Shown here piece after piece: positions 1,965 through 50,480 of a DNA stretch of 64,000 bases (its first letter is position 1; the number at the start of each line of letters is the position of its first letter). A program made the position numbers and the translations under genes. A model generated the notes under the pieces. It had not been told where the DNA came from, did not search any database, and worked only from the letters and a program-made list of their open reading frames with translations. The stretch spans positions 124,001 through 188,000 of the forward strand of contig NZ_QXFO01000008.1 of NCBI RefSeq assembly GCF_003584105.1. The letters are read 5' to 3'. The stretch is from Flagellimonas taeanensis. Lineage in GTDB: Bacteria > Bacteroidota > Bacteroidia > Flavobacteriales > Flavobacteriaceae.

Positions 1965-2003
1965 TTTTAAAAAAGATCATTATATCTATCATAAAAGGGT
2001 GTT

Positions 2004-6053: not shown

Positions 6054-6523
6054 TAATGCAGGATTTACAATAGGATACTTGTTTCAAATTACCAGAAACA
6101 CCCCAAACCTAAACGGACATGCCTTTGTCAAGAATCCTGATGTTATGCGCAAGCCCTTTGGCAAAGGAAAAGTGTTCAGTCAAATATATTTCTTTTGGCA
6201 GGCATTAAGGTAGTTTGGATGGGCCAATAGATGGAATATTTAACCAAATTCCTGTAAATAAGCTTCTAAATTTCGGTTTTTATTCTCCGACCAATGGGAT
6301 GTAATTCCTTGGGGGGGATGGTAATTGTTTCAAGCTCCATAATGAATCAAGGACCAGACAGACACTATCGTCACCACATTTAATTGGTTACATCCGCTTC
6401 ATCCCATTTAGTCAAAATTCAGGCATATAAGGTGAAAATTTACATGATTTTGATTGAAAATCACATTTTCATTAAGGGTAAAGAATTGTAAAATTGCTAG
6501 CAAATTAACCAAACAAACTTTAA
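6054..6523. promoter_or_regulatory. Divergent control region between HTCS and SusC, with nested dyad
   Basis: This 470 bp spacer holds no gene. Near its right end are nested inverted repeats: TGAAAAT (6433-6439) with ATTTTCA (6465-6471), and inside them TGATTTT (6445-6451) with AAAATCA (6457-6463). The dyad is about 50 bp upstream of the SusC start, where an AraC-type output domain would bind. TAAAATTG at 6489-6496 resembles a -7 box, but no well-placed TTG partner was found. Binding is inferred from symmetry and position only. Confidence 0.45.
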
Positions 6524-9523
6524 ATGAATAAGATTAAATTAGTTTTATCGACTTTCTTTCTGATTTTATCATTTACGACATGGGCACAATCCATAACTGT
6601 GTCCGGTGTTGTGTTGGACAACAACAATACACCTCTGCCAGGTGTAAATGTCCTTCAGAAAGCAACCACCAATGGTGTGGTGACCGATTTCGATGGAAAG
6701 TTCTCCATTGATGTACCAGAACAGAACGCCACTTTGGTATTTTCGTACATTGGATTCTTGACGCAGGAAATTGAAGTGGACGGAAATCAATCCAATTTGA
6801 AAATTCAAATGGTTGAAGATGCCGCCTTGTTGGATGAGGTCGTGATCATAGGATATGGTCAGGCCAAGAAAAGTGACCTCACAGGCGCCGTCGCATCCCT
6901 GAAATCTTCGGATATAGCAAGGGCCAACCCTGTTTCCGCCGCACAAGGTATCCAAGGTCAAATGGCAGGGGTGAACATCATTAAAAGAAACAATAGACCA
7001 GGTTCAGGTCTTGACATTAGGATCAGGGGACTTAGTTCCATCGATTTCAGCAATGAACCTTTGGTTGTTATTGATGGTATTCAAGGTGCCGATTTGAACA
7101 CGGTGAACCCCGCCGATATTGAAACCATCGATATTCTAAAAGATGCTTCTTCCACGGCCATTTATGGATCACGTGGTGCTAATGGTGTGGTCATTGTCAC
7201 CACCAAACGTGGTACCAAGGGAAAAATGTCCTTGACCTACAATGGATATTCCGGGCTCAAAATGCCATCCTATTTGCCAGAAATGCAAAATGCCCAACAA
7301 TTTTATCAGGCAAGCACTATTGCCAGGGAACAAAATGGGTACGCCGCCAAAACCTTTACATCCACCGAGATGGAAGTGTTGGCTTCCGGGAATGGCATTG
7401 ATTGGGTGGACGAAGTGACCCGTTCTGCTTTGCAGACCAGCCATAATGTTTCTTTGAGTGGAGGCAGCGATAATGTCAACTATTATTTTTCCCTTGGCTA
7501 CTTAAATGAAGGAGGTACCCTAAAAGACACTGATTTTAAGCGATACACCATCAATGGTGGATTGGATGGCGATGTCACGGACCATGTGAAGGTTGGGTTC
7601 ACCATGAACTACACCAATTCCCTGATCAATTTAGGTTCCAGGGAGTCGCTCCGCGGAGCGTATCGGGCACGACCCACGGGGGTAGTCTATTTTGATGAGA
7701 TACTTAATCCCAGCGAAAACAACGATGTGGAGCATGATGGATATGCCGTATGGATGGGCATCAATGACAAACAAGTGTTGAACCCAATAGTAGAGGCCGA
7801 TAGAAGAAATTTCCAGTTGGAGACGCTCAGTTCTGATTTTAGGGGCAACGCCTATATAGAAGTGACCCCTTTAGAAGGACTGAGTCTGAAATCATCCCTC
7901 TCTGCAAGAAAATATGATGCACGGGATGGAATGTACCGTGGTACTTTCACAAAAGATCAAAGGGCAAGTTTGCCTCCAAGGGCCAACAGCAGCAACCAAA
8001 TATTGACCAATTATACGCTTGATAACATCATCAACTACCAAAAAACATTTGGTAAAAGCAGTATAAATGCGACCGTGGCACAAAGTGCCTTCAAAGAAAG
8101 AGTGGAGGTAATGGGCCTCGATGTGGAAAATCTACCCTATGATTCATCGTGGTATGCCGTCAATACTGCTGGCACCATCAACTCGGTCAATTCCAATTTG
8201 ACCGAAAGGACCATTTCTTCCTATATGGGCAGGCTCGTATATGGGTTCAACGATAACCGGTATCTGCTGACCGTGACTGGAAGATGGGACGGTGCGTCGC
8301 AATTGGGTGACGGGAACAAATGGGATTTTTTCCCATCGGCAGCCTTGGCCTGGAAAATCAGCGATGAGAACTTCCTAAATGACAGCGAGACCATATCGAA
8401 CATGAAGATTCGGGTAAGTTATGGTACCGTGGGCAACAGCGCGGTTGACCCCTACAGTACCTTGACCAGATTGTTGCAGACACCATACGCCTTTGGCGAA
8501 GCTCCGGCATACGGTTTTGCCCCTGCCGCCTTGGTCGATAAGGATTTGGGATGGGAAAAAAGCAAGGAATTGAACATAGGGCTTGATCTCGCCCTGTTCA
8601 ATAATAGGATCTCTTCCACCATTGAGGTTTATGACAGGGAGACCGTGGACCTGATTTATAGGGAACGCATCCCGACCTCACAAGGCTTTGGAGAGTTCAT
8701 CACCAATATTGGTTCGGTATCCAATAAGGGAATCGAGGTGGCCCTCAACACCAGAAACATTGTAAAGGATAAAATTACTTGGTCCACTTCTGTAAATTTC
8801 GCCAAGAACATCAATGAAGTGTTGTCCATTGGCAATAATGGAACCCTTGAAGATATTGGGTCCAACCTTTTTGTGGGGCAACCCTTGAATTCCAATTATT
8901 TCTATGAGTTTGATGGCATTTGGCAATTGGATGAAGCCGAAGAAGCCGCAGTGTATGGACAGGTTCCCGGTTCTGTGAAAGTAGTGGACCAAAACCAGGA
9001 CGGCAAGATCTCATCGGCCCCAGGGGAGGATGATAGGATCATCTTGGGTTCCGAACAGCCCGACTGGACCATGGGTATCACCAACAAATTTACCTTTGGT
9101 AACATTGACCTTTCCTTTTTGGCCTATACCGTCCAGGGCGTCCAATTTAGAAACAACTTTTTAAGCGGTACTATGGGAGAAGTGGGTAACGGTAGGTACA
9201 ATGCCCTAAACCTGAACTATTGGACTCCGGACAACCCGACCAATGACTATTTCGGGGCTGGAGTACCCAATCCCTATAGACAGGCCATCCAATATCAGGA
9301 CGCTAGCTTCATACGTATTTCCGATATTACTTTGGGCTATACCCTACCGTCCGAATTGGCATCCGATGTATTGGGAGTCCAGAATTTGCGGATATACGCC
9401 CAAGTGATCAACCCATTCATTTTTCATGATTTTGATGGGATAGATCCTGAATTCAATTCCAGCGCCTATAACGATGATGTGTCCTCGACCACGATACTAT
9501 TGGGCGTGAAATGTACTTTTTAA
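6524..9523 (+). CDS. SusC/RagA family TonB-linked outer membrane transporter
   Basis: This 999-residue outer-membrane barrel imports oligosaccharides captured by its SusD partner, powered by TonB. It has a signal peptide ending near WAQS, a carboxypeptidase-regulatory-like domain (about 25-100; SVTGVV-like start with LPGVNV and F..D.DGKFSI), the plug with DEVVIIGYGQAKKSDLTGAV, the SusC signature IYGSRGANGVVIVTTKRG (about 216-233) and a long barrel ending in an aromatic residue (CTF). Length is normal. It is followed by SusD after 16 bases and precedes the degradative genes, so it is probably the first gene of a long transcript under control of the HTCS. Confidence 0.96.
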   Translation: MNKIKLVLSTFFLILSFTTWAQSITVSGVVLDNNNTPLPGVNVLQKATTNGVVTDFDGKFSIDVPEQNATLVFSYIGFLTQEIEVDGNQSNLKIQMVEDAALLDEVVIIGYGQAKKSDLTGAVASLKSSDIARANPVSAAQGIQGQMAGVNIIKRNNRPGSGLDIRIRGLSSIDFSNEPLVVIDGIQGADLNTVNPADIETIDILKDASSTAIYGSRGANGVVIVTTKRGTKGKMSLTYNGYSGLKMPSYLPEMQNAQQFYQASTIAREQNGYAAKTFTSTEMEVLASGNGIDWVDEVTRSALQTSHNVSLSGGSDNVNYYFSLGYLNEGGTLKDTDFKRYTINGGLDGDVTDHVKVGFTMNYTNSLINLGSRESLRGAYRARPTGVVYFDEILNPSENNDVEHDGYAVWMGINDKQVLNPIVEADRRNFQLETLSSDFRGNAYIEVTPLEGLSLKSSLSARKYDARDGMYRGTFTKDQRASLPPRANSSNQILTNYTLDNIINYQKTFGKSSINATVAQSAFKERVEVMGLDVENLPYDSSWYAVNTAGTINSVNSNLTERTISSYMGRLVYGFNDNRYLLTVTGRWDGASQLGDGNKWDFFPSAALAWKISDENFLNDSETISNMKIRVSYGTVGNSAVDPYSTLTRLLQTPYAFGEAPAYGFAPAALVDKDLGWEKSKELNIGLDLALFNNRISSTIEVYDRETVDLIYRERIPTSQGFGEFITNIGSVSNKGIEVALNTRNIVKDKITWSTSVNFAKNINEVLSIGNNGTLEDIGSNLFVGQPLNSNYFYEFDGIWQLDEAEEAAVYGQVPGSVKVVDQNQDGKISSAPGEDDRIILGSEQPDWTMGITNKFTFGNIDLSFLAYTVQGVQFRNNFLSGTMGEVGNGRYNALNLNYWTPDNPTNDYFGAGVPNPYRQAIQYQDASFIRISDITLGYTLPSELASDVLGVQNLRIYAQVINPFIFHDFDGIDPEFNSSAYNDDVSSTTILLGVKCTF

Positions 9524-9539
9524 TTTAAAATAACAAGAC

Positions 9540-11360
9540 ATGTTTAGCAATAACAAATGTTTGTTCGTAGCCGGTATTTTTTCTTTGATAGTAACATTGT
9601 CCGGTTGTAACGAAGACTTTTTGAATGAAAACACAGTTTCCATTCAAACCACCGACACCTATTATACCACGTCACAAGGATATGAAGACCTTGTAAAATC
9701 ATGCTATACCCTCCTAAGGGATATCCACCAGCAAAGGGAACTTGTACTTTCCGGTACCGACATCTTCACAAATGCAAATTGGACAGATGATGCGGGAGAC
9801 CCATTCAACACCTATGATGTAAGGCTAAATTCCTCCATGGTCGAACTCCAGGATTTATGGGATTTGTTGTATAGGGAGATTTATAGGACAAATACCGTTA
9901 TCTCCCGTCAGGAAAATGTAGAAGGCATCGACCCAGGAACATTGTCCATACGTGTGGCCGAAGCCAAATTTCTTCGGGCCTTAAGTTATTTCTATTTGGT
10001 GCAACAATGGGGCGATATACCCATGCCCATCGAAGAGGTTGTTACCTCATCCCGTGAGGTAATCAAAATAGGTTCCAGTGAAGTGTATGATCAGATCATT
10101 TCCGACTTGGAGGAAGCTGAATCGGTTTTGCCCCCAAGTAGTCTCGATTATGGACGTGCAACCAAAGGCGCTGCACAGTTTTTATTGGCCCGGGTCCATT
10201 TGACCAGAGGTTGGAATTTCAATAATGCACTGGGAGGTACTCCTACCGATTTTGAAAAGGCTCGGGAATATGCCGATCAGGTCATTTCCGCCTATCCCTT
10301 GGCAACAGAGTATTCCGATTTATTCCCACAACGATCGGAAAACCCTTTGTTCGAAACATTTCCGGCACAGGATGATCAAAATCCTGAAATTGTTTTTGCC
10401 GTGCAGTTCGTGGATGATCCCATCACCAATTTTGGAGACCCGTCAAATAGCGCTCGATTGGAAGGGAACGACTACCATTCCATATTCGGAGGATCTCCGG
10501 ATATCGTAGGTTCTGAAGGAAGGACAAGTACCTATAACAGATTTCTGCAAATACACTTGGCCACACCGACCATGTATCGATTATACGATCCAACCCTTGA
10601 CAGAAGGTACCACCATAATTTCGTGGATGTTCAATACGCCCTTGTGAACGTGAACAATTTTGTGCCAAATCCAGCCAACCCATCAGAGACCATCAACATT
10701 ATGAGAGGGGATTCCGTGCTCTATTTTAGACCATGGAACGACCCAGCCTCGCTTTCAGAAAAAGGGTTGGATGTTGGAGGGACCAAACCCTACGCCGTGC
10801 TGAATACCGATGAATACGGTGATAACGCCCTAACCCCTTTCCATGGTATGGATATTACACCATTGATGTGGAAGTTTTGGCAACCAGGCATTGAGTATGG
10901 CGATGCCTTCGGCACCTTCGATTTTGCTTTGTTCCGTTCGGCCGAAGCCTATCTCATTGCTTCGGAAGCCATCTTGAAAGGCGCATCCAACGGAAATTTA
11001 GGAGGAGCTGAAAATTATTACAACAGCATTGTGGACAGGGCCTTGGGGACCGATAGTGGCATGACTCCCTTGCAAGCTTTGCATCCAGAAGATGTCACCT
11101 CTCTGGAAACAGTCTCTTACCGTGCCGCGGGCAACCTAACCATAGATATGATCTTGGATGAAAGGGCTAGGGAACTGATGGGCGAATACTGTAGGTGGTT
11201 CGATCTTAAAAGGACCGGAAAACTCATTGAGAAAACCCAATTGAGAAATCCAATAGCACGTCGATCGGGAACCATGGATGAAAAGCACTACCTGCGCCCA
11301 TTTCCACAGGCGGAGATAGATCGTTCCGTGCCCAGGATCGACAATAACCCAGGGTATTGA
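9540..11360 (+). CDS. SusD/RagB family surface glycan-binding lipoprotein
   Basis: The 606-residue product has a lipoprotein signal with lipobox LSGC (Cys near 23), followed by NEDFLNENTVS and a TPR-rich SusD fold. Late motifs typical of the family are ILDERARELMGEYCRWFDLKRTG and, at the C-terminus, LRPFPQAEID. SusD caps the SusC barrel and captures the glycan at the cell surface. The pair is adjacent and co-directional. The ligand is not predictable from sequence; the downstream uronate genes suggest an acidic glycan. Confidence 0.95.
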   Translation: MFSNNKCLFVAGIFSLIVTLSGCNEDFLNENTVSIQTTDTYYTTSQGYEDLVKSCYTLLRDIHQQRELVLSGTDIFTNANWTDDAGDPFNTYDVRLNSSMVELQDLWDLLYREIYRTNTVISRQENVEGIDPGTLSIRVAEAKFLRALSYFYLVQQWGDIPMPIEEVVTSSREVIKIGSSEVYDQIISDLEEAESVLPPSSLDYGRATKGAAQFLLARVHLTRGWNFNNALGGTPTDFEKAREYADQVISAYPLATEYSDLFPQRSENPLFETFPAQDDQNPEIVFAVQFVDDPITNFGDPSNSARLEGNDYHSIFGGSPDIVGSEGRTSTYNRFLQIHLATPTMYRLYDPTLDRRYHHNFVDVQYALVNVNNFVPNPANPSETINIMRGDSVLYFRPWNDPASLSEKGLDVGGTKPYAVLNTDEYGDNALTPFHGMDITPLMWKFWQPGIEYGDAFGTFDFALFRSAEAYLIASEAILKGASNGNLGGAENYYNSIVDRALGTDSGMTPLQALHPEDVTSLETVSYRAAGNLTIDMILDERARELMGEYCRWFDLKRTGKLIEKTQLRNPIARRSGTMDEKHYLRPFPQAEIDRSVPRIDNNPGY

Positions 11361-26226: not shown

Positions 26227-27567
26227 ATGGGAGCGCGAAGAGACTTTATCAAGAAAACAACGATCGCTGCCATTGGCGTGGGACTACCCGGTAGTATCAA
26301 TGCCATGACGGCCAAGAGTTACAACAGTATTTTAGGAGCAAATGATAGGATTCATGTGGCCATTCAGGGTTTGGGCAGGCGCTATGGGGCCTATATCCCT
26401 TCTATAGCGGCCAAGCAGAACAATGTGCGCTTGGACTATCTATGCGATGTTCGGGACAGCCAATTGGAAAAGGCAGTACAACATGTGTCCAAACAAATAA
26501 CGTATGATCCCAAACAGGAAAAAGACATCAGAAAGATTTTGGAGGACAAGGATGTGGATGCGATTTTTATGGCCACGCCAGACCATTGGCACACGCCCGG
26601 AGCCTGTATGGCCATGGAGGCAGGGAAGCATGTTTATTTGGAAAAACCATGCAGCCATAATCCCCATGAAAATGAAATCGTGGTCGCGTGTCAAAAGAAA
26701 TATGATAAGGTGGTCCAAATGGGGAATCAGCAACGATCCTCTCCACAAAGTATCGAAATCATCAACGATATCCACAACGGCATTATCGGGAAGGCCTATA
26801 AAGCAATAGCTTTCTATACTAACGGAAGGGGAGAAGTGCCACTTCCCGTACAAACTACACCACCAGAGGACTTGGATTGGGAACTGTTCCAAGGGCCGGC
26901 CCCAAGAAAAGCATATGAACACGATATCTGGGACTATAACTGGCATTGGTACGGTTGGGATTATGGAACTGCTGAAATGGGCAACAATGCAACACATGAA
27001 CTGGATATGGCCCGATGGGCATTGGACGTGAATTATCCAGAATACGTGGATGTCTTGGCGGGAAAACACCAGTTTGTAGATGATGGTTGGGAAATGTATG
27101 ACACCATGGAGGCAACCTTTAAATTTGCCGATGATAAGGTTATTAAATGGGACGGTAGTAGCCGGAACGCTTATTCTAAGTATGGACGAGACCGAGGGAC
27201 CCTTATTTATGGTTCCGAAGCGGCGGTAATGGTGGACAGGGACGGATATGAACTGTATGACAAAAAAGGAAAATTGATCAAGGAGGAAAAATCTGGGGGC
27301 AACGAAGGAGGAACAGCTTTAGGAGGCGGAGGCGATTTGTCAACGATGCATGCAGTAAATTTCTTAAATGCCATTAGGGGGGAAGAGGATTTGACCTCAC
27401 CCATAGAGATTGGGGCTGTTTCACAAATGCTGACACATTATGCCAATATATCCTATAGGATTAACAAAGGTTTCAATGTGGATGGGAATACAGGTAGGAC
27501 ATTTGATAGAGAAGCAATGGAGCATTGGAAGAGGGATTACGAGCCAGGGTGGGAACCTAAACTTTAA
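26227..27567 (+). CDS. Gfo/Idh/MocA family oxidoreductase, Tat-exported
   Basis: The 446-residue protein has a twin-arginine-like leader (MGARRDFIKKTTIAAIG, residues 1-17), then a Rossmann NAD(P) domain (IHVAIQGLGRRYGAY; normally GxGxxG, here GLGRRYG) and the family motif EKPCSHN with the catalytic-region Lys. The C-terminal substrate domain includes HELDMARWAL. Periplasmic members oxidize sugars to 3-keto sugars or act on glycosides with tightly bound NAD. It follows the broken DUF1080 gene by 10 bases and closes the carbohydrate locus. Confidence 0.9.
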   Translation: MGARRDFIKKTTIAAIGVGLPGSINAMTAKSYNSILGANDRIHVAIQGLGRRYGAYIPSIAAKQNNVRLDYLCDVRDSQLEKAVQHVSKQITYDPKQEKDIRKILEDKDVDAIFMATPDHWHTPGACMAMEAGKHVYLEKPCSHNPHENEIVVACQKKYDKVVQMGNQQRSSPQSIEIINDIHNGIIGKAYKAIAFYTNGRGEVPLPVQTTPPEDLDWELFQGPAPRKAYEHDIWDYNWHWYGWDYGTAEMGNNATHELDMARWALDVNYPEYVDVLAGKHQFVDDGWEMYDTMEATFKFADDKVIKWDGSSRNAYSKYGRDRGTLIYGSEAAVMVDRDGYELYDKKGKLIKEEKSGGNEGGTALGGGGDLSTMHAVNFLNAIRGEEDLTSPIEIGAVSQMLTHYANISYRINKGFNVDGNTGRTFDREAMEHWKRDYEPGWEPKL

Positions 27568-27790
27568 GCATAATTGGATGTTGGACCTGAAATTAAATCT
27601 ACGCCTCATTGGCTAATTCAGCATTTGCTTTTAAGTCTTTATTATATTTTAAGAATCTTTTTCTTTCAGTTCCCTATCTGATTAAGAGTCTTTTTATTAC
27701 GTCCGAAAAAGATATAATGATTACAAGTATGTATATTGGGTCTGGAGGTACAACTTCACCGAATCAGTAGTTTTATTCCTATCTTGGGAC

Positions 27791-28471
27791 ATGGAAAAAT
27801 TGGGCAACATATTGGCAATCTGGTTTCATCGTCAAAGGTCCATGTTTAAAAAGATGAATTCTAAGTTGGGCCATCTTTCTCTTAACCAGCTTTCATTCTT
27901 AATTATAATCCTTTTTGGGTTATTACCACTGACCACCTTTTTTATCATTGCCCATGATAATTTTTATTGGACACAGGTTGTGGCAAGCTATCTTTTAGTA
28001 GTACTGCTTTTTGTCTTAGTCCTTGTGGTAGTAATTGGGTGGTTCAAGGCCAAAGAAATGGCGAATGCAGATGTAGAAGGCTTCTCATTTGTAAGACTAT
28101 CGTTTAAGAAGGTAGACAAGGAATATTTTGGATTTGATGACTCCGATATGGAAAATGTAGAGCTTTTGACAACCCTTTTGCCTTCCAAAGAAAAGATAGT
28201 CATTAGGGAAGTGCCAAAGAACAAGCAATCGGGTAATCTTAGGTTTCTTTTTTCGTTTTTGGACCATATTATTGAAGGGGGCATTCAAGGACTTGGAAAA
28301 GAATCGAGAGACTCACTTTCCAGTTTAGTTCAAAAAAGATTTTCCTTCGATGGCTCCGAAATCAACCAAAATACTTTTGCATCAAGTTACTCAAAATGGT
28401 CACAGAAGACCAAAGAAGGGGATTATGATGATACCCGAAAAGCTATAACCAAAGCCCTGGGCCTCTCCTAA
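27791..28471 (+). CDS. Unknown membrane protein at head of mobilization module
   Basis: I do not recognize this 226-residue protein. Two adjacent membrane helices are clear (about residues 35-56 and 61-82: LSFLIIILFGLLPLTTFFII and VVASYLLVVLLFVLVLVVVI). The C-terminal 140 residues are soluble and hydrophilic. It ends 156 bases before the excisionase-like gene and is on the same strand, so it may belong with the mobilization genes. The 27568-27790 spacer before it holds nothing identifiable. Confidence 0.6.
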   Translation: MEKLGNILAIWFHRQRSMFKKMNSKLGHLSLNQLSFLIIILFGLLPLTTFFIIAHDNFYWTQVVASYLLVVLLFVLVLVVVIGWFKAKEMANADVEGFSFVRLSFKKVDKEYFGFDDSDMENVELLTTLLPSKEKIVIREVPKNKQSGNLRFLFSFLDHIIEGGIQGLGKESRDSLSSLVQKRFSFDGSEINQNTFASSYSKWSQKTKEGDYDDTRKAITKALGLS

Positions 28472-29206: not shown

Positions 29207-29791
29207 ATGGAAAAGCAAGAAAGCAATAATAGAACAAAGAAAGGAAGCGGTGGTTATTCCAACATCACGGTAAAGAAGGAAACGGCCACACGCTTTCGCA
29301 GTTATTCAAAGAAGTTCAACAAATCCCATAGTGAGGTATTGGATGGAATGATGCAATACTTCAAGGAGAACAACCTTGACCCTTTTGGTGAGGGAACAAA
29401 GATCATTCTTGAAAGTATCAAAAAGTTGGAGGTGAAGATTATGAAAAAATTCGATAGGCTCATCGCCATTATCAAGAACATGGAAAAGACCAGTATCCGG
29501 CCCACCTATGAAATGATGTTGATACTTTACGAGGCCTATGTAAAGGATGGGAGGAGACCGAGAAGAGAGCCAATCCAAATACAGGAAGAGCGGAAGGACT
29601 TTTTGGAGCCTAGGAATACCGTTCCGAAAACAGAGCACGATAGAATACTAAAAGAATTTGAAAGCTATAAAAAACGTTGCAATGAAATCCTCCATAATGT
29701 GGAGAAGGTAGAACCCATGATGGGAAAGCCGTATTTAAAGATCAATATGGGCATCGGGGATTTTGAAAGTTTGAAATACCAATTAAAATAA
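29207..29791 (+). CDS. Mobilization accessory protein, BfmA/BtgA-like
   Basis: The 194-residue protein starts with GYSNITVKKETATRFRSYSKKFNKS, a ribbon-helix-helix-like DNA-binding segment, followed by SHSEVLDGMMQYFKENN and a basic, coiled-coil-prone C-terminal part. Proteins of this type (BfmA, BtgA) bind oriT and assist the relaxase in mobilizable Bacteroides elements. It ends 5 bases before the relaxase gene. Assignment rests on the N-terminal pattern and on the partner gene. Confidence 0.78.
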   Translation: MEKQESNNRTKKGSGGYSNITVKKETATRFRSYSKKFNKSHSEVLDGMMQYFKENNLDPFGEGTKIILESIKKLEVKIMKKFDRLIAIIKNMEKTSIRPTYEMMLILYEAYVKDGRRPRREPIQIQEERKDFLEPRNTVPKTEHDRILKEFESYKKRCNEILHNVEKVEPMMGKPYLKINMGIGDFESLKYQLK

Positions 29792-29796: not shown

Positions 29797-30819
29797 ATGT
29801 ACCTTACCATATCAGCACAGAAAATGGGCAGTACCTATAACTCCAGTGTAGGGAACTATGTGGACTATCTGGAAAAAGAGAACGAGGACAGATTGCCCGA
29901 ACAAAGGGAGGAATTCTTTGACCAAGAGAACGACAACATAAGCCCTCAAACGGTCATCGATGAAATAGATGCCAACACCGCCAAACTGAGACAGAAAGAC
30001 CCGAAATTCTATTCCATAGTGGTCAGTCCCAACCAAAGGGAACTGAAGTCCATCGGCAATGACCCCAATATGCTAAGGGAATACACTAGGAAACTCATGG
30101 AGGACTATGCCAAGAGTTTCCATCGCAACCAAGAGATTAAGGCCGAGAACCTGAAGTATTATGCCAAGATAGAGCATGAGAGAACCTATCGGGGCTTTGA
30201 CATGCAGGTTCAGGAGAATGCCCCCTATCGAGGAGAAATAGCAAGGCTGAGGAACGAGATACGGAAAGTGGAAAGGGGCGAATCCATCGGAAATGTCAAA
30301 GAGCTTGAAAAAAGAATCAAAGAGCAAGAAAGATTGGCCCCACACAAACAGAACGGACAATTGGTGGCAGCCGGAATGCAAAAGGAGGGGCCACAGACCC
30401 ATATCCATATCATAGTCAGCAGAAGGGACGTAACGAACACCTACACACTTTCACCAATGGCCAAGCACAAGGCATCCGAAGTGGAACTAAACGGAAAAAT
30501 GGTCAAAAGAGGGTTTGATCGGGACAGCTTTTACCAAGCAGCAGAGAAGACCTTTGACAGGACAACGGGCTTTAAAAGGAACTATGTGGAATCCTATGTA
30601 GGGAGAAAGGCGCATGCCAAGGAACCGGGGAAGTTCTTTGCCAAGGTGATGGGATTGCCCACCAAGGAAAAGGACATGGCTTTTAAACTACTTAAGACAA
30701 TGGGGGTCAAGGCCCCCAGTATACCGGCCAATAAAGTGCAGATGGCTGTCAAGATCATAAAGGCTCTTGGGAGGGGTATCGATAAAGCAAGGGGCACAGG
30801 TGAGGATATGGGCTACTGA
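29797..30819 (+). CDS. Mobilization relaxase-like protein, BfmB/BtgB (DUF5712) type
   Basis: The 340-residue protein begins MYLTISAQKMGSTYNSSVGNYVDYLEKE and carries FYSIVVSPNQRELKSIG, a Tyr-bearing YYAKIEHERTYRG and GPQTHIHIIVSRRD. The last is the paired-His (H-x-H) metal site expected of a relaxase. This layout fits the BfmB/BtgB mobilization family of Bacteroidota. Such a protein nicks oriT and pilots DNA through a helper element's conjugation pore. No type IV coupling protein or mating-pair genes are in the window. Confidence 0.8.
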   Translation: MYLTISAQKMGSTYNSSVGNYVDYLEKENEDRLPEQREEFFDQENDNISPQTVIDEIDANTAKLRQKDPKFYSIVVSPNQRELKSIGNDPNMLREYTRKLMEDYAKSFHRNQEIKAENLKYYAKIEHERTYRGFDMQVQENAPYRGEIARLRNEIRKVERGESIGNVKELEKRIKEQERLAPHKQNGQLVAAGMQKEGPQTHIHIIVSRRDVTNTYTLSPMAKHKASEVELNGKMVKRGFDRDSFYQAAEKTFDRTTGFKRNYVESYVGRKAHAKEPGKFFAKVMGLPTKEKDMAFKLLKTMGVKAPSIPANKVQMAVKIIKALGRGIDKARGTGEDMGY

Positions 30820-31053: not shown

Positions 31054-32181
31054 ATGCCAAGTACTGAGATTAGATTAGAAAATAAATTGGGAGGGTGGAA
31101 AAGTAGCGTAGTTTCTACAGAATGTACCTTACACCAACTTTCACCATATATTGGAAAAATGAAATCTTCGATGGCCAAGGGATTGGTTGAAAATTTTTCA
31201 CATTATGGAGACACAGTTTATGATCCATTTGCTGGCTGTGGAACAATTGCCTTGGAAAGTTGGATTCTCGGCAGAAAAGTCATAGCTAACGACTTAAGCC
31301 CTTACGCGCATATTCTAACTATGGGCAAAATGAACCCGCTTAATACAGAAAATAAAATTTTAGAGACTATTGAAGAACTATCCAACGAGATTAAGGAGGA
31401 AGGATTAAAAACCGATTTAAGGCAAATTCCGGATTGGGTAAAAGAGTTTTTTGATGAGAGAACTTTACATGAAATCATTGTTTGGAAGGATAAACTTACT
31501 TCAAAAAATCAATGGTTTCTTCTCTCTTGCTTAATGGGGATATTACATCACCAAAGACCAGGATTCTTATCCTATCCATGCAGCCACACAGTTCCTTATT
31601 TGAGGACTAAGAAATTTCCCCCAAAAGACTTTCCGGACCTTTATAAATATAGGCCACTAGAACCTCGATTGCAAAGCAAAGCTCTCCGTGCAATAAGACG
31701 ATTACCTAAATTGGATTATGGATTGGCAAGAAACTGTTTTCAGAATAATTCTGAGCACTTAACTCCCCCTGTTAAAGTTAACTCTATCATTTCCAGCCCT
31801 CCTTATATGAGACGCCTTGATTATGGTAGGGACAATAGGCTTCGGTTATGGCTATTGGGAGAAAATAATTGGAAAGAATTGGACAATGTAATTTCCCCTA
31901 GTGAAAGTAACTTTTTGGATAGTATGAGAATTTGTTTTAGAACATGGTTGGACGTTTTGGTTGAGAATGGTAAGTGTGTGCTAGTCTTGGATGATAGCTA
32001 TAGTAAAAAATACGAATTATCATTAATTGATACTATTATCAAGATTGCATGTGAAGAAGTAGGAGGATATAGGCATCTAGGCAATTTTGAAGACAAAATT
32101 CCAAATGAAAGAAGAGTCCGAAGAAACCATTCAGGAAGTAAATCGGAAATAATTGTTGTCCTCGAAAAGGAAAAAATATAA
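31054..32181 (+). CDS. Site-specific DNA methyltransferase (N6-adenine or N4-cytosine)
   Basis: This 375-residue S-adenosylmethionine-dependent methylase has motif I DPFAGCGTIALES (about residues 56-68) and the catalytic motif IV as SSPPYM (about 247-252), the S-P-P-Y form of amino-methylases. The roughly 190 residues between them may be a target-recognition region, as in alpha-type order. No restriction endonuclease is adjacent. The next gene, a kinase-ATPase, starts 15 bases later, and all three genes of this block share low G+C, so the methylase probably marks self DNA for the cassette. Target sequence unknown. Confidence 0.88.
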   Translation: MPSTEIRLENKLGGWKSSVVSTECTLHQLSPYIGKMKSSMAKGLVENFSHYGDTVYDPFAGCGTIALESWILGRKVIANDLSPYAHILTMGKMNPLNTENKILETIEELSNEIKEEGLKTDLRQIPDWVKEFFDERTLHEIIVWKDKLTSKNQWFLLSCLMGILHHQRPGFLSYPCSHTVPYLRTKKFPPKDFPDLYKYRPLEPRLQSKALRAIRRLPKLDYGLARNCFQNNSEHLTPPVKVNSIISSPPYMRRLDYGRDNRLRLWLLGENNWKELDNVISPSESNFLDSMRICFRTWLDVLVENGKCVLVLDDSYSKKYELSLIDTIIKIACEEVGGYRHLGNFEDKIPNERRVRRNHSGSKSEIIVVLEKEKI

Positions 32182-32195
32182 CTTTTAAAATTAAG

Positions 32196-34700
32196 ATGAC
32201 AGCAGACAATTCAGACTATAATATAGGAATAAGCCCATGGAAAGATTATGTGCTGACTGAGTATAAAGGAAAAGGCAAAACAGGAAGAGTTTACAAAGCT
32301 GTTCGAAAAGGAGATAGTCAAGATATTTTAGCGTGTAAAATAATATCTCCTAAAAAACTAAGGCCTGGATGGGAAAATGAGTTAGAAAAACTTTCAAAGC
32401 TTAGAGGAGTTCCTAATGTAGTGCCATACTTCCACCACGGAGAATGTAAAAATCAAAATGACGAGCCAGTAGTTTTTATACTTTATCAATTCATAGATGG
32501 GTGGAATTTAAAAGAGTATGTAAAAATACATGGAGATCTTGAGCTTGTATTGATTGAACAAATTATCAAAACTGTGGCATCGGTTTTATATGCTTGCAAT
32601 GGTGTAAATATTGAGCATGGAGATTTACATGAGGGAAATATCATGATTAGCAGGCCCGATATTAGAATGATAGGCAACCCGCCGATTATTTGGATAACAG
32701 ATTTTGGATATGGAGGCTCTCATAATGACCTGAAGCCCAAAAATGATTTCAAACAGCTTTTTACAATTTTCACTGCACTTTTAAAAGGAATAGAAAGAAG
32801 CAGTCTAAACCCAAGAGATCGTATAGTTTTTGATAAAATGATTGAATTCAAAAACACAAAGGTCCTGGAATATGATCCAACTCAGGGAAGATTTGCGGGT
32901 CTAGAAGCGTTGGTGAACGAAATCGACGAAATTGGTAGAAATGCTGAAATAGAGGTTGCGATTGAAAAAAGGGGCGAAACTTCCATGGCCCCAGGGGATT
33001 ATCTATATGCGGAGGCTTTAGGTATAGATAAGAACGAATGGCAAATATTATTTGTTCCCGAAATACTGGGTTCAAAGAACTTACTAAGTAAGAATATAAC
33101 TATACTTACAGGAGCGAGAGGATGCGGGAAAACAATGACCTTTAGAAGGCTTACAGCATTTATGGATGGTCTAATCGGTCAAAGTTCCGGCGTTGAGGGG
33201 TCAGAACAGTTTGTTGGGTTTTATGTTAACTGCCGAGATTTGGTTGAAGCATTTCCTTATATTCCGTTTAAGACAAAGGTGCCAATCGATGATCAAATTA
33301 TTCATTTTTTTCATCTATTATGGTTTGCAGAATTATGCAAGTCACTTGCTATACAGAGAAAAAAAGAAGATTCATTTAAATGGTTAGATGATTTTACTTC
33401 TAAAATATTCCCGGACTACGAAACCCCTCCTAAAGGAACTGATATTTTGTCCTATGTTAGAACACATATTGAAGAGGCCAAAGAGAATTGCCGTTTAGTT
33501 AGGCTAGGGTTAAAAGATGGGTTTGAAAACTGGCCGGCATCTCGAATGGATTTTCTAGATTTAATGGTTCAAGAAACTCAAAAGAATGTTATTTGGATTA
33601 CAAAAAGACCTTTTTACTTTTTTTTAGACGATTACACCCTGCCTCTTATAAGTGGTCAAACACAGAGAATCTTGAATCCAATTCTTTTCAAAAGAAGGAG
33701 CACTCTTTTTTTTAAAATTTCTACCGAGTCTTCAAATAGCTTCGACATAACGGGTGTAAGAGGCAAACCATTGGAATTAACTCAAGATTTTGAGTTAATT
33801 GATATGGCAAATGAAAGCCTTCATCTTTCTAAATCTAGTAAGAGGGAATTATTAAACAAAATTTTTATTCCAAGAATAAAAAGACACCATTTACTGAAAG
33901 AAGAAAATTTCAGTTTAGACGACATACTTGGTAAAACCCCCTTATCAAATAACGAGTTGTCAAAAAAAATGAGGGAGGCTTCACAGGAAGGAAAGCAGCG
34001 TAAAATTTTATATCAGGGTGTAGACACATTTGTAGGGATGTGGTCAAGCGATACAAGAACTATGATTCAAATGTTTGTCGACATTCTCAAAGAAGCTGAA
34101 AACGATGTAGCTTTGGAGGCTACTTTAACACCTATTAAACCATCCATCCAAGATAGGGTATTTAGGTCTGCAGGCGGAGAATTTTTAAAATTTATGGAGG
34201 CCGTTACTGACCCGATGGACTGGGAAGATACGAAAGCAACAAAATTTAATAATGGAAAGTTTGGTATACATCTTAAAGATATAGTTGAAGCTTTTGTTAA
34301 TGTTTCAAGATTTGAGATGACCCAGGGGCCTTTGATTTCAAATCAAGGGCGACAGCATCCTAAACAAGCATTTAGAATTGAAATATTGGATAAATTTGAA
34401 TTATCTCCGGAAAGTAAGATGTTTTATAATGGCTTGACAAGGTGGCATATTTTTCTCCAAGATTGGAGAGGTAAAAGTGTTCGTGGAATGCTTACCCCAA
34501 GACTTTTTATAAATCGCCTGTTAATTCCCTATACAAATCTTTCTTTTTCCTCTCATGACAGTATCTCTTTGAACAATGAAGAGTTTATGAGTTTGCTGAC
34601 AAATCCTAAGGGGTTCTATATCTATTGGAAAGATAAGAAAAAGGATAAACTAGCGGATCCAAAGCAAACTAACCTATTTGAAAAAAATGAATTTACCTAA
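32196..34700 (+). CDS. Protein kinase fused to P-loop ATPase, candidate defence protein
   Basis: The 834-residue protein has a eukaryotic-like Ser/Thr kinase domain at about 15-250. It shows a Gly-loop (EYKGKGKTGRVYKAV), a VAIK-type Lys (ILACKII), a catalytic loop HGDLHEGNI at 141-149 with Asp 143, and DFGYG from Asp 169. A P-loop NTPase follows, with Walker A GARGCGKT at 306-313 and a Walker B-like YFFLDDYT near 473-480. The remaining 350 residues match nothing I know. Kinase-ATPase fusions beside a methylase recall phage-sensing defence systems (PglW-like, Stk-like), but the exact combination is not one I can name. The gene overlaps the next by 23 bases. Confidence 0.8.
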   Translation: MTADNSDYNIGISPWKDYVLTEYKGKGKTGRVYKAVRKGDSQDILACKIISPKKLRPGWENELEKLSKLRGVPNVVPYFHHGECKNQNDEPVVFILYQFIDGWNLKEYVKIHGDLELVLIEQIIKTVASVLYACNGVNIEHGDLHEGNIMISRPDIRMIGNPPIIWITDFGYGGSHNDLKPKNDFKQLFTIFTALLKGIERSSLNPRDRIVFDKMIEFKNTKVLEYDPTQGRFAGLEALVNEIDEIGRNAEIEVAIEKRGETSMAPGDYLYAEALGIDKNEWQILFVPEILGSKNLLSKNITILTGARGCGKTMTFRRLTAFMDGLIGQSSGVEGSEQFVGFYVNCRDLVEAFPYIPFKTKVPIDDQIIHFFHLLWFAELCKSLAIQRKKEDSFKWLDDFTSKIFPDYETPPKGTDILSYVRTHIEEAKENCRLVRLGLKDGFENWPASRMDFLDLMVQETQKNVIWITKRPFYFFLDDYTLPLISGQTQRILNPILFKRRSTLFFKISTESSNSFDITGVRGKPLELTQDFELIDMANESLHLSKSSKRELLNKIFIPRIKRHHLLKEENFSLDDILGKTPLSNNELSKKMREASQEGKQRKILYQGVDTFVGMWSSDTRTMIQMFVDILKEAENDVALEATLTPIKPSIQDRVFRSAGGEFLKFMEAVTDPMDWEDTKATKFNNGKFGIHLKDIVEAFVNVSRFEMTQGPLISNQGRQHPKQAFRIEILDKFELSPESKMFYNGLTRWHIFLQDWRGKSVRGMLTPRLFINRLLIPYTNLSFSSHDSISLNNEEFMSLLTNPKGFYIYWKDKKKDKLADPKQTNLFEKNEFT

Positions 34701-35715
34701 TTTACAAAGGGCGGAAAAATTAATAGCCTTAAAAAAAAGGTTATTCATTGGCGCATATGGATTTGAAGATAGAACAATAGGATGGTTACAATATCAATCT
34801 GAATTGACAAAGGGAGCGATATTAGATTCGGCCCTTATGTTTAATTATGATTTAAGTAATGATTTGCACCCAAGCCCGAATAAAACGACGCTAATACAAA
34901 CATTACTTAAACGATTGGGTTGTATTAACGGTATACAAGAAATAGGATATAATTGGGAAATGCCAAATAATATTGAGGATGAAATCGAAGATTTTTTTTC
35001 AAGGAAACTTAAATCTTATGAAGAAATCATAGTCGACATTTCAACTATGAGCAAGTATCTAATCTTGATATGTCTTCTTAAGTTAACGGAGTATAATGGC
35101 AGTATACGGATTGTTTATTCAGAAGCATCTAAATATAGCCCCTCTTATAAGGAATATTTGAAATCAAAAGACAACATGGCCTTTCTCGCAAAATATCCAA
35201 GTCAAGGGGTCGCGGCAATAGCTAGAGCACGTTGTCTTAGTAGTATTCGTATGCAGGGTCAACCAGTTACTTTAATAGCTTTCACATCATTTAATGAACA
35301 GCTTGTAAGACATCTTTTAGGAACTATGAATCCTCATAGATTGATTTTAATTAATGGACGACCTCCAGATCCTAAATTGAAATGGAGGGAAAGCGCCACT
35401 CAGGAAATACATAAAAAACTAATAGAAACTTTTTCTATATATAATCCTCTTGACAAGGACAATTTTATGACCAACAGTATCAGCACTCTTGATTATAAGG
35501 AAACAATAGATGTTGTAAATAAAATTTATAATGAAGTTGGTAATTATGAAAGAATTATTTGCGGGGTGACAGGAAGTAAAATGCAAACCGTAGGATTATA
35601 CTTCAGCAAGATTCTTCATCCCGATATTCATTTGGAGTATCCAACTCCTAGTAGTTACTACGTTGAAGGTCTTAGTCAAGGGGTAAAGAAAATACATGAA
35701 TTGATTATAAATTAA
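34678..35715 (+). CDS. Unknown protein with two CARF-like repeats, third gene of cassette
   Basis: I do not recognize this 345-residue protein by family. It seems built from two Rossmann-like halves. Each half has a hydrophobic strand ending in a small-residue loop with Lys and then a helix: EEIIVDISTMSKYLILICL (from about 115) and ERIICGVTGSKMQTVGLYF (from about 291). These resemble the (D/G)-x-[ST]-G-[ST]-K loop of CARF-type nucleotide sensors. A strand IRIVYSEASKY or IHLEYPTPSSYY follows each. The start overlaps the kinase-ATPase gene by 23 bases, so the two are coupled. A role as sensor or effector of the cassette is inferred only. Confidence 0.6.
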   Translation: MKKMNLPNLQRAEKLIALKKRLFIGAYGFEDRTIGWLQYQSELTKGAILDSALMFNYDLSNDLHPSPNKTTLIQTLLKRLGCINGIQEIGYNWEMPNNIEDEIEDFFSRKLKSYEEIIVDISTMSKYLILICLLKLTEYNGSIRIVYSEASKYSPSYKEYLKSKDNMAFLAKYPSQGVAAIARARCLSSIRMQGQPVTLIAFTSFNEQLVRHLLGTMNPHRLILINGRPPDPKLKWRESATQEIHKKLIETFSIYNPLDKDNFMTNSISTLDYKETIDVVNKIYNEVGNYERIICGVTGSKMQTVGLYFSKILHPDIHLEYPTPSSYYVEGLSQGVKKIHELIIN

Positions 35716-35798: not shown

Positions 35799-36044
35799 CT
35801 ATATTGGATTATCAGGCATAAAATCCTTCATACTACATTCAAGGTATTTCGCCAGTTCGTTCAACTGATCAAAAGAATACATGCTAGGCGAACTATCCAT
35901 TTCGATTTGACCAATGTAGCCACGTGTGACCCCGAATAGTTCACCAATATCTGATTGACTACGATTTAATTTATTCCTTCTAGCCTTCACAAGCCTCACA
36001 ATCTTCAATTCTATTTTTGTCTTTGGAGTAACTTTTTTTGCCAT
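35799..36044 (-). CDS. XRE-family transcriptional regulator
   Basis: The 81-residue protein is a single helix-turn-helix: LVKARRNKLNRSQSDIGELFGVTRGYIGQIE, then a C-terminal helix LNELAKYLECSMKDFM. It is convergent with the methylase-kinase cassette and ends 83 bases after its last gene. Small XRE proteins near methylases often act as controller proteins; here that role is only suggested by position. An inverted repeat 27 bases upstream of the start (36071-36116) is a likely operator. ATG 36044 gives the natural N-terminus (MAKKVTPKTK). Confidence 0.85.
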   Translation of the reverse strand: MAKKVTPKTKIELKIVRLVKARRNKLNRSQSDIGELFGVTRGYIGQIEMDSSPSMYSFDQLNELAKYLECSMKDFMPDNPI

Positions 36045-36070
36045 TCTTAAAAAAATATTCAAAAACATTT

Positions 36071-36116
36071 GCTTAGTTATCGCTAACACATTATGTTTGC
36101 ATAGTCATAACTAAGC
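36071..36116 (-). promoter_or_regulatory. Putative operator upstream of XRE regulator
   Basis: GCTTAGTTAT at 36071-36080 and ATAACTAAGC at 36107-36116 are exact 10 bp inverted copies separated by 26 bases. They lie just upstream of the regulator's start, in the position expected for autoregulation. No binding evidence beyond symmetry. Confidence 0.5.
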
Positions 36117-47250: not shown

Positions 47251-47311
47251 TTTGACTTTTTCAAAAAAAATGCATACCTTTGTAGCATAGTATCATATAT
47301 GATACTATGCT
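47251..47311 (+). promoter_or_regulatory. abiEi-like promoter overlapped by second palindrome
   Basis: TTTG at 47251-47254 and TACCTTTG at 47275-47282 are separated by 20 bases, an exact match to the Bacteroidota -33/-7 consensus. A perfect 28 bp palindrome (47284-47311, centre GTATCATATATGATAC) begins one base after the -7 box, covers the expected transcription start and reaches the first possible ATG. Repression by occlusion is the obvious reading. Confidence 0.75.
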
Positions 47312-47321
47312 TTTGAATAAT

Positions 47322-48215
47322 ATGCCAAAGGAATCATTTGACAGAGCGGCTTCCGATATTGCTACTTTCTTTGAAAAACACCCTTTCAAGGCTTATACAA
47401 CTCATGACATCCAACAGATATTTGATTCAGAAAAAGATAAATGGAGAATAGCTAATTATCGCAACTACAAACACTTCATCACTTTCTTGAACGATCGTAA
47501 AATACTATTGTTGGATGTTCAAAATCATGAGGGCCATACCTCTGAAAAACGAATCTTAAGGAAGAAAGAGGCAACACCTTTCCATGTGGGTTTGACCGTT
47601 AAAAAGGATGGATACTTAAGCTATTATTCTGCCATGCAAATCCACCAACTTACCCTTCAGTTACCAAAAACAGTTTATGTCAGTGAGGAAAAATATGAGG
47701 ATGCCTATGCATTGAAACCAGAAAATGTCGAGTTGGAGCAGGATGCGGTAGATAGGGCATTTTCCAAACCACAGCGTGTGGCGAGGGAATCCTATAAATC
47801 AACTTTTGATGGCTTTCGCTATGTCTATCTTCAGCGAAAGCATACGTCTATCAATATCGGGATAACAAAAAGACAGAATTTGACCGTCACAGATCTTGAA
47901 CGTACTTTAATTGACATTGCCGTCCGTCCCGTGTATTCCGGCGGAGCCTTTGAGGTGCTTGAAGCATTCAAAAATGCAAAGTCAAATATTGATGTGACAA
48001 AACTGAACGAATATCTTATTCAACTGGACTATATATATCCTTACCACCAACTCATTGGATTTTACTTGGACCTAATAGGTTTTTCAAAAAAAGACCTACA
48101 ATTATTTTTGGATAAAAAGACAAATATCAACTTCTATCAGGCCTATAATCTATCCAATAAAAAGCTGAATGAAAAATGGGGCATATATCACCCTATCGGG
48201 ATTGAAGCTCTTTGA
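47322..48215 (+). CDS. AbiEi-like antitoxin/transcriptional regulator
   Basis: The product is 297 residues from ATG 47322; an ATG five codons earlier (47307) lies inside the operator palindrome. The N-terminal part (FFEKHPFKAYTTHDIQQIF) fits a winged-helix domain. The middle (DGYLSYYSAMQIHQLTLQLPKTVYVSEEK) and the LTVTDLERTLIDIAVRPVYSGG segment fit AbiEi-type antitoxins of type IV systems. Such proteins repress their own promoter and counter the AbiEii nucleotidyltransferase. The partner is on the opposite strand and the two stop ends overlap by 23 bases, unlike the usual tandem operon. Confidence 0.82.
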   Translation: MPKESFDRAASDIATFFEKHPFKAYTTHDIQQIFDSEKDKWRIANYRNYKHFITFLNDRKILLLDVQNHEGHTSEKRILRKKEATPFHVGLTVKKDGYLSYYSAMQIHQLTLQLPKTVYVSEEKYEDAYALKPENVELEQDAVDRAFSKPQRVARESYKSTFDGFRYVYLQRKHTSINIGITKRQNLTVTDLERTLIDIAVRPVYSGGAFEVLEAFKNAKSNIDVTKLNEYLIQLDYIYPYHQLIGFYLDLIGFSKKDLQLFLDKKTNINFYQAYNLSNKKLNEKWGIYHPIGIEAL

Positions 48216-49041
48216 TTCGTTCCTGTACGAAATCAAAGTAAAAATCATACTCCTCACTTTTAGCAGTGATGGTATCCTTTACATTTATCCAGTCTTGGGC
48301 GTGGGTATCTTTATATTTTTCTATTAAATCCAAAAACTTTAATGGCACCTTCTTCGCATCGAAGATATGTTGAAGCATTTCTTTATTTTCAGAAGAGGTA
48401 CAATCAATCTGAAAATTTTGAAACAAGTTCCAAATGTCATAAAAATCCCGTGGCCTAAGCTTCATTTTGGCAGTGGGAACAATATCCCTGTACTCGGGCA
48501 TTGACTGACATAGCGCCCTCAATTTCTCAAATACAATCATTTCTGGGGTATACACATAAAAAATGGTACCTTCTACATCCACCAACCTTTTAGGTTCTGT
48601 ATATTCATAGGAACTGATGTCGACCGTAAAAACTGTAGAATTATTTTCTAGGATTACATGAGCCTCCCTTCTATTCTTATCCTTGTCTTCAGGATTGTAG
48701 TTTTCGTAATCGATTACTTTGAAAGCTAGCTGATATCCCTTCCATTCCTTCACCTTGTTCTGCCTTGGCTTTTCGTAAAATTTTACATCAAAAACCACCA
48801 AATCGTGTTTTTCAAATTCCTGGGTCAATAGTCCCTGCATTTTGCCATTGATTCTTTTGTATTCCTCATTGGTGAAATCTCCGGAAATTGAAAAGTCCAC
48901 GTCTTTGGAAGCTCTGTCCGTTATCTTATAAGCCAACTCCAAAGCGTTTCCACCTTTAAGGACAAGACCGTACATGAGTTCTTCATCACTTACTAAAGCG
49001 CGAAGGGTCAACATTTTTATAGTTTCGAGAATGGAACCCAT
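48193..49041 (-). CDS. AbiEii-like nucleotidyltransferase toxin
   Basis: The 282-residue protein has the nucleotidyltransferase start LVLKGGNALELAYKITDRASKDVDFSISGDF: a G-G-x-x-L helix, then S-K-D-V-D-F with the metal-binding Asp pair. Further AbiEii-type motifs are TPEMIVFEKLRALCQ and RPRDFYDIWNLFQ. AbiEii toxins block growth through nucleotide transfer, probably to tRNA or related targets, and give abortive phage resistance. It is encoded convergently with the antitoxin-like gene; the 3' ends overlap (48193-48215). Transcription must come from the 49042-49117 gap after the integrase stop or from integrase read-through, not from the palindrome-controlled promoter. Confidence 0.85.
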   Translation of the reverse strand: MGSILETIKMLTLRALVSDEELMYGLVLKGGNALELAYKITDRASKDVDFSISGDFTNEEYKRINGKMQGLLTQEFEKHDLVVFDVKFYEKPRQNKVKEWKGYQLAFKVIDYENYNPEDKDKNRREAHVILENNSTVFTVDISSYEYTEPKRLVDVEGTIFYVYTPEMIVFEKLRALCQSMPEYRDIVPTAKMKLRPRDFYDIWNLFQNFQIDCTSSENKEMLQHIFDAKKVPLKFLDLIEKYKDTHAQDWINVKDTITAKSEEYDFYFDFVQERIKELQSR

Positions 49042-49117
49042 AATTTAAAAAGTAGTCGTTTTGCCTTGAAAAAAATTAAAATAAAGATATTTATTGAGAA
49101 ACGAAATGTGATTCACA

Positions 49118-50329
49118 TTATAAAAGAACTTCTATGGCTTTATCAACAACAGATGTATCCAATTCCTTCAAATAGGCCTGGGTTATGGCCATATTTTGAT
49201 GGCCCAATGATTCGCTGATCACATCTGTCGCAACACCTTTTTGCTTAAGGCAATTGGCAAAGCTGTGACGTGCCACATAACTTGTCACCGATTTTTCGAT
49301 TTCAGCTAATTGGGCGATGGTTCTCAAGTCTATGTTATAATTTTTTAGCACTTTGGTCTTGCGGTTTTCTATCTGGTTTGGGGTAAGCTCATTATGGAGC
49401 AAAATCGGAAAGACATATTTCGTGCCCAATGAATTTTTACGATAATGATCCAAGATTTTCTGAACCGGGGGCAGGATTTTAATAGTAAAGTTTCCCTTGG
49501 TCTTGGACCGGGTATAGTAAATGTTTCCCCCTATGATATCCTTCCATTTCAATTTCATCATATCGGCAAAGTTCATTCCTCGGGTGTAGAAGCTGAAAAC
49601 AAAATAGTTCTTGCTGTTCAAAAGCTCAGGATTTTCAGAAAGGTCAACGTTGATAATTTGCTTTACCTCTTCAAAGGTAAGTGCCCTTTTGGCTCCCCTT
49701 CCTTTTAATCTGGACACTTTGTATGTCCGAAAGGGATATAGGGATTCTTTTACGATATTCCTTCTGATGGCCTGGTTGTAGAGAGCCCTTATGGATCGCA
49801 TCCTTACACCAATACCTCCATCTGTTCCACCACGTGAGCGCAGATAGGCCTCATACTTTTCAAGAAAGGCAGGGGTAATGTCCGTAAAGGAAAGGTCTTT
49901 GTCAAATTTTAAATATCTCTGGACGGATTTACTGGTATCGTTGTGAAAACGGGCATTGCCCATTCTGCCAGCGAGCTTCAATTCCTCAATTATTTCATCC
50001 CAAAAGTCAAAAACGTTTCTTCTGATCGGATTGAAAGCTAGTCTAAAATTATGTTCGAATTCCCTCAAAGAGAAATCGTCTTTCTCCATTTCCAACTCTG
50101 CAATCACTTTTAAAGCCCTGTCCCTAAACTTTAATAACAACCGGTTGTCCTGAATAAAATTGCTATGGTTTTTATTAAAGGAGCCAGTACGTTCATCCCA
50201 CTCCTTTGGAAATGCATTGTAAATGGTCTTGAAGTATTTAGATCGCCTATCTTTGGTTACACGAAGGCACACCGGATAACTTCCATCGGAAAGCTGTTTT
50301 TTTCTTAAAACCGTTCGTACATTGATCAT
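49118..50329 (-). CDS. Tyrosine recombinase/integrase of the element
   Basis: The 403-residue site-specific integrase has the Bacteroidota arm-binding start MINVRTVLRKKQLSDGSYPVCLRVTKDRRSKYF, a SAM-like core-binding domain, and a catalytic domain with the first Arg in FSFYTRGMNFADMMKLKW (about 249), the H-x-x-R box as ARHSFANCLKQKG (about 353-365), the second His in LGHQNMAITQAYLKEL and the nucleophile Tyr near 386. All catalytic residues are present. ATG 50329 fits the family start; the frame is open to 50374 but would run through the arm-like repeat. The gene lies 151 bases inside attR. Confidence 0.95.
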   Translation of the reverse strand: MINVRTVLRKKQLSDGSYPVCLRVTKDRRSKYFKTIYNAFPKEWDERTGSFNKNHSNFIQDNRLLLKFRDRALKVIAELEMEKDDFSLREFEHNFRLAFNPIRRNVFDFWDEIIEELKLAGRMGNARFHNDTSKSVQRYLKFDKDLSFTDITPAFLEKYEAYLRSRGGTDGGIGVRMRSIRALYNQAIRRNIVKESLYPFRTYKVSRLKGRGAKRALTFEEVKQIINVDLSENPELLNSKNYFVFSFYTRGMNFADMMKLKWKDIIGGNIYYTRSKTKGNFTIKILPPVQKILDHYRKNSLGTKYVFPILLHNELTPNQIENRKTKVLKNYNIDLRTIAQLAEIEKSVTSYVARHSFANCLKQKGVATDVISESLGHQNMAITQAYLKELDTSVVDKAIEVLL

Positions 50330-50344
50330 TTTCAGCGGTGTTTT

Positions 50345-50365
50345 GGGTACAACATAGGTACAACA
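50345..50365 (+). repeat. Right copy of 21 bp integrase arm-like repeat
   Basis: Identical to 1944-1964, with two GTACAACA units at an 11-base period. It lies 16 bases upstream of the preferred integrase start (minus strand), so integrase binding here could also repress its own gene. Confidence 0.6.
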
Positions 50366-50480
50366 AATGGTCATTTAAAGGTAGTATTGATGCTTCTAAA
50401 TGAAAAATAAAATTTCATAAAACATTGATAATCAACACAAAAGAAGCCAAATGAAAATTTATGACAACTAAAAAAAGCTG

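Follow-up and report, generated by a model that had tools for sequence, protein, structure and literature searches.

What do three tightly coupled genes in the genome of Flagellimonas taeanensis do together, and is their combination new? The original prediction took them for an undescribed phage-defense cassette. We analyzed a window of 64,000 nucleotides, in which the three genes form intact open reading frames on the plus strand. Gene 1 (31054–32181, +) encodes a DNA methyltransferase of 375 residues (Pfam N6_N4_Mtase, 1.9e-10; PADLOC MTase_II, 9.3e-18) whose motifs, DPFAGCGT from residue 57 and SPPY from residue 248, are of the amino-methyltransferase type and probably denote N4-cytosine or N6-adenine specificity. 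Gene 2 (32196–34700, +) encodes an 834-residue fusion of a Ser/Thr-type kinase (approximately residues 15–180; Pfam Pkinase, 2.7e-12) with an ORC/CDC6-like AAA+ ATPase (from approximately residue 280; Pfam ORC-CDC6-like, 4e-21), the P-loop of which, GARGCGKT, has an Arg inside. Gene 3 (34687–35715, +) encodes a tandem-CARF-like protein of 342 residues (PADLOC CARF6, about 5.1e-13 to 5.4e-13). The residues singled out in the original prediction, namely the HGD Asp143 of the kinase, the Walker (P-loop) Lys312 and the methylase SPPY, are all correctly placed. The tight coupling also stands, with its distances corrected: genes 1 and 2 are separated by 14 bases (32182–32195) and not 15, and alignment with relatives points to ATG 34687, not TTG 34678, as the probable start of gene 3, whose overlap with gene 2 would then be 14 bases, not 23.

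The trio probably sits in a mobile island. Its genes have a distinctly lower G+C content (36.3, 35.6 and 32.8%) than the whole window (44.7%), as had been claimed, and genes for a BfmA/BtgA-type mobilization protein (29207–29791, +; NCBIfam mob_BfmA_Nterm, 1.9e-21) and a MobB relaxase (29797–30819, +; NCBIfam MobB_relaxase, 6.6e-111) lie directly upstream; DNA similarity to five compared congeners stops at 27567–27569. The assertion that the trio lies inside a mobile element is thus partly supported, by its neighbors and by the loss of similarity but not by two other marks: the two sides of the low-GC tract share no exact 14-base repeat, and no recombinase was recognized among the proteins scanned from it. 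On the left side of this tract, a protein encoded at 27791–28471 has no family match above cut-off. The XRE-type HTH regulator reported next to the trio is real (35799–36089, −; Pfam HTH_3, 4.9e-8). We rejected it as a part of the core because tblastn (E up to 0.01) found no relatives of it in the 10 other loci that contain core genes, and it probably lies outside the conserved unit. In one of those loci, L070, an HTH gene is found 3.7 kb upstream of the methylase.

The assignment of gene 3 draws on a profile and a predicted fold. Its AlphaFold model, built from 6 sequences (pLDDT 81.9, pTM 0.86), consists of two Rossmann-like units, and Foldseek matched this model to 15 PDB entries at E ≤0.001, 10 of them CARF proteins as judged by their titles and 5 of them other proteins. 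The CARF matches include Csm6, Csa3, Cam1, Card1 and 6sce, which we take to be Can1; TM scores are low: among the 50 matches listed, 6sce scores highest, at 0.50 of the query. The GFExR and GSK motifs are present in all nine aligned CARF sequences. In the first CARF motif, Lys is replaced by Arg in L068, which counts against the defense reading. With a CARF-type Rossmann fold in the model and the characteristic motif, gene 3 fits the CARF superfamily by profile and predicted fold, and the CARF-like label originally given to it is borne out. A reading of gene 3 as GMP_synt_C was dropped, its match (0.031) being under the family cut-off. Some CARF proteins are reported to bind cyclic oligonucleotides. 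The CARF effectors of type III CRISPR systems (Csm6, Csa3, Cam1, Card1, Can1) resemble gene 3 in its predicted fold and differ from it in that gene 3 has no recognized nuclease domain.

In gene 2 and its relatives, all eight aligned kinase parts retain the Lys of the ATP site and the Asp of catalysis, and the P-loop of the ATPase reads xRGCGKT in nine of nine aligned sequences; the kinase DFG motif drifts in distant members, to DLG in L016 and to DFS in L074, the latter outside the eight-sequence alignment, a further point against the defense reading. The predicted model of the kinase-ATPase is poor (pLDDT 51.5) and unusable, so the proposal that the ATPase binds DNA comes from its family membership.

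Much of this architecture has been seen before. Makarova et al. described in 2014 a family in which a Zn ribbon, a kinase, an AAA domain and a CARF domain are fused (PMC4012209, section 7); they remarked on the Arg in its P-loop, placed a wHTH after CARF and proposed a role in kinase-mediated signaling, and neither section 7 nor the other passages covered name a methylase partner for it. The PADLOC model CARF6--CARF_STK_AAA (PDLC01925), which, from its matching domain order, we infer to represent this family, matches L016 from end to end (1473.5 bits) and window genes 2 (9e-20) and 3 (7.3e-6) in part. The window has the same order of kinase, ORC/CDC6-like ATPase with the P-loop Arg, and CARF. 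It differs from the modeled family in several respects: (i) its core is split in two, with CARF in a separate gene, whereas CARF is fused in L016 and L074; (ii) it lacks the N-terminal Zn ribbon, the Cys-pair pattern in the first 60 residues being present in only two of nine proteins, those of L016 and L064; (iii) its match to the model is only partial and weak; (iv) it has an amino-methylase partner; and (v) gene 3 is predicted to comprise two Rossmann-like units, in contrast to the wHTH that follows CARF in the passages on the 2014 family. The kinase-ATPase-CARF core belongs to this fused family, known since 2014, as a split and diverged version of it.

Half of the label “undescribed” therefore holds: a description of the core exists, and one of its methylase partnership was not found in print. 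Among the literature matches listed, no title or opening of an abstract except that of the 2014 paper names the trio or its core. The portions of the CoCoNuT paper covered (PMC11090510) give contexts that combine CARF and kinases, and the present trio was not found there; a search of the literature apart from the main CARF classification of Makarova et al. 2020 turned up no description of the methylase pairing, the split forms or the exchange of methylases. These three features are what may be new here.

Does the unit recur elsewhere? We read core genes in 11 loci, nine of which have a readable upstream side, those of L002 and L003 being cut by contig ends; a methylase lies upstream in eight of the nine. 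A methylase of the same family accompanies kinase, ATPase and CARF in seven loci (the window, L004, L006, L015, L068, L070 and L074), which span several phyla, a Bradyrhizobium plasmid and two viral contigs. The eighth, L016, has a cytosine-C5 (m5C) methylase instead, and one gene for a 407-residue protein stands between it and the fused core; in L064, tblastn with four methylases detected nothing related upstream, as far as that side can be read, and the downstream side is cut. Both count against the defense reading, L064 since no methylase is visible upstream and L016 since the methylase is different and a gene is added. The m5C methylase and the 407-residue protein of L016, which has no Pfam or PADLOC match, occupy 326–2652, before the fused core. 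In L064, a Zn ribbon-kinase-ATPase gene (7515–10085) lies at the end of a viral contig that also has an rve-type integrase gene, with neither CARF nor methylase in the part readable up to the contig end.

The way in which the core is divided among genes varies. Kinase and ATPase are fused and CARF is separate in the window, L004, L015, L068 and L070; L006 has three separate genes, and a single protein unites all three parts in L016 and L074. The last was found by the PADLOC kinase-ATPase-CARF model alone and has, directly upstream, a same-family methylase 40% identical to that of the window. Scans of viral contigs with profiles of genes 3, 2 and 1 gave 2, 3 and 6 loci, respectively, the same two contigs appearing in all three; an earlier scan with a narrower, 4-row profile of gene 3 gave none. 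L068 has genes for a major head protein and for a minor tail protein upstream. Gene 3 matched one plasmid record and the ATPase one, the same plasmid, and the methylase matched 17, of which four had their surroundings examined; gene 3 had no match in phage records. Recurrence of the unit in such distant genomes is beyond chance. The co-occurrence of the three families, proposed at the outset as a check, is present in six loci besides the window, and such a spread over phyla, a plasmid and viral contigs makes a phage-defense cassette plausible, as originally suggested.

The setting next to MobB, on a plasmid or on viral contigs, where head and tail genes of a phage precede one copy, could also be expected of an addiction or maintenance module, in which the methylase would protect against the core and stabilize its island, plasmid or phage, phage defense being secondary. 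We consider this very unlikely: L004 and L015 lie on large bacterial contigs with no mobility gene evident by eye in their lists of open reading frames, and the neighbors in L003 are defense-like. There (1425–9180), the CARF gene is followed by genes for a DUF1156 methylase, AAA_21, a DUF4276-like protein (below cut-off) and SNF2. Separately, in L006 an Mrr-type restriction endonuclease gene (1889–2926) precedes the Bradyrhizobium methylase by two genes.

The system is rare and patchy across phyla, and its rarity weighs against the defense reading. CARF matches were obtained in 1 of 59 relatives and 1 of 395 class members, in 2 of 288 genomes from the phylum of L004 (Verrucomicrobiota), 2 of 297 from that of L003 and 1 of 4 from that of L002, each count taking in a genome already known to carry the CARF gene; one of the two matches in the phylum of L003 is the weak match that led to L016. 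The PADLOC core model at 1e-15 reported 1 of 297 and 1 of 296 genomes and did not report that of the window, so the split form is beyond its reach at that setting. In the Verrucomicrobiota draw (288 genomes), the methylase matched 17 genomes at 1e-20, and the only two with matches below 1e-100 are the two that have the CARF gene, the next match being 4.9e-40; because the methylase model contained both top sequences, the draw was centered on one of the two genomes and no more than 6 candidates per genome were scored, this co-occurrence is weak support. An ORC/CDC6-like ATPase would suit a regulatory role outside defense that is coupled to methylation, for example in the control of replication or transcription. 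Such a role is highly improbable, given that the unit is rare and scattered patchily over phyla and mobile DNA and that the Pfam scan recognized no HTH domain in the trio proteins.

The methylase and the core have probably not always traveled together. Over six complete sets, which leave out L016 and L074, pairwise identities of ATPase and CARF are closely correlated (r 0.95), those of methylase and CARF less so (0.71) and those of methylase and ATPase least (0.54). The methylase tree joins L015 and L068 (98/98) and disfavors a group of L006, L068 and L070 (AU p 0.013); the CARF tree groups L015 with the window group (98/99) and rejects L015 with L068 (p 0.0006). Since the clades were chosen after the identity table had been seen, these p values are only indicative, and both trees contain long branches. 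The conflict between the trees makes at least one exchange likely, and the sequences thus suggest that the methylase has probably been exchanged at least once. A single clade of the six trio methylases was neither recovered nor rejected (AU p 0.13), which counts against the defense reading.

Exchange of this kind recalls restriction-modification systems and raises the prospect of classical restriction, in which the core, or a nuclease hidden in it (for instance in the gene 3 product or in the C-terminal region of the ATPase), would cut unmethylated DNA. Precedent could be sought in BREX, in which ORC/CDC6-like ATPases occur and the nuclease long went unrecognized, according to the passages covered of PMC12839542. 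We nevertheless rate classical restriction as clearly unlikely: among the matches listed for the three proteins with Pfam, NCBIfam and PADLOC, at most 25 of them from PADLOC, there is no nuclease family, and the predicted fold of gene 3 is that of two Rossmann-like units.

Nor does the trio coincide with the named methylation-based systems compared here. Type 2 BREX/Pgl brings together the methylase PglX, the kinase PglW and the ORC-Cdc6 ATPase BrxD (PMC12839542, published in 2026, in the passages covered), a likeness to the window in all three respects; the difference is the tandem CARF of the trio, and in the text covered of that paper CARF occurs only in the reference list. Membership in BREX was rejected because no PglZ, helicase or BrxC-type gene was found among the eight locus proteins scanned. 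Gene 1, which qualifies as a DNA methylase, matches the PADLOC MTase_II models and thereby resembles the methylase of type II restriction-modification; a plain type II system was rejected, no restriction endonuclease having been recognized in the trio or the scanned neighbors. The trio shares a methylation theme and a protein kinase with MADS, and the kinase part of gene 2 weakly matches MAD6; MADS was likewise rejected, as this match scores 34.9 bits where the cut-off is 460, and the HTH gene at 28562 scores 31.3 where MAD1 requires 80.

We posit, tentatively and at somewhat less than an even chance, that the trio is a compact restriction-like defense system carried on mobile DNA, in which the methylase provides the self mark and the core responds. 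In this scheme, the methylase would mark the DNA of the host, and the kinase-ATPase and the tandem-CARF protein would act as one conserved core that reacts to the entry of foreign DNA lacking the mark. Assembly on DNA would probably fall to the ORC/CDC6-like ATPase, a small ligand of nucleotide type could bind the tandem CARF and switch the complex, and the kinase might then phosphorylate host or phage proteins to stop infection. From defense itself to self-marking, DNA binding, the ligand, the order of signaling and the kinase as effector, these are steps that we infer. The trio contains no nuclease or other proven effector, which makes the choice of the kinase a guess, and the source of a CARF ligand was not found: the genome has no match to the one Cas10 family searched, TIGR02578, which 7 of 14 control genomes match, and none to CD-NTase (SMODS, PF18144), which 3 of the 14 match, 2 of them over the cut-off. 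CBASS was rejected on the latter ground.

The CARF-like fold, the conserved GSK and GFExR motifs and the existence of fused kinase-ATPase-CARF relatives, for which kinase-mediated signaling was proposed in 2014 (PMC4012209, in the passages covered), could alternatively point to abortive signaling, in which CARF senses a nucleotide produced upon infection and switches on the kinase, the cell is arrested, and the methylase is a layer of control rather than a self mark. This alternative is unlikely, if well short of negligible; a methylase upstream in eight of nine readable core loci is more than a control layer alone needs, and the genome encodes no synthase of the two families tested.

A broader reading, which we regard as possible though rather doubtful, is that immunity of this kind is modular, methylation-gated signaling: an exchangeable methylase would define self, and the response arm, instead of a nuclease, would combine a kinase with an ATPase that assembles on DNA and a sensor of the tandem CARF type. 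If one family of methylases serves several mutually unrelated response arms, “restriction” would be a general socket and not a fixed pair of methylase and nuclease. Were this so, the trio would offer a small, three-gene route to how the methylation status of DNA becomes a phosphorylation or nucleotide signal and a genomic setting for the CARF-kinase family described in 2014, and its naturally exchanged methylases would allow one to test how self-marking separates from the response arm.

The methylase family does keep other company. It is found beside ParA and SIR2 in L007, L065, L066 and L067, a three-gene set that occurs on viral contigs and a Salmonella plasmid and appears to be a further system based on this family. 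The methylase nearest that of the window by identity (~53%) lies outside a trio, in L069 (7935–10827), before GmrSD-N and HEPN-type proteins, and distant relatives (28–29% identity) are near HerA/DUF87 genes in L008 and L009. Within the window, a second low-GC island (47307–50374) contains an AbiEii-type toxin gene (PADLOC, 9.9e-19), a neighboring gene that has no family match and a tyrosine recombinase.
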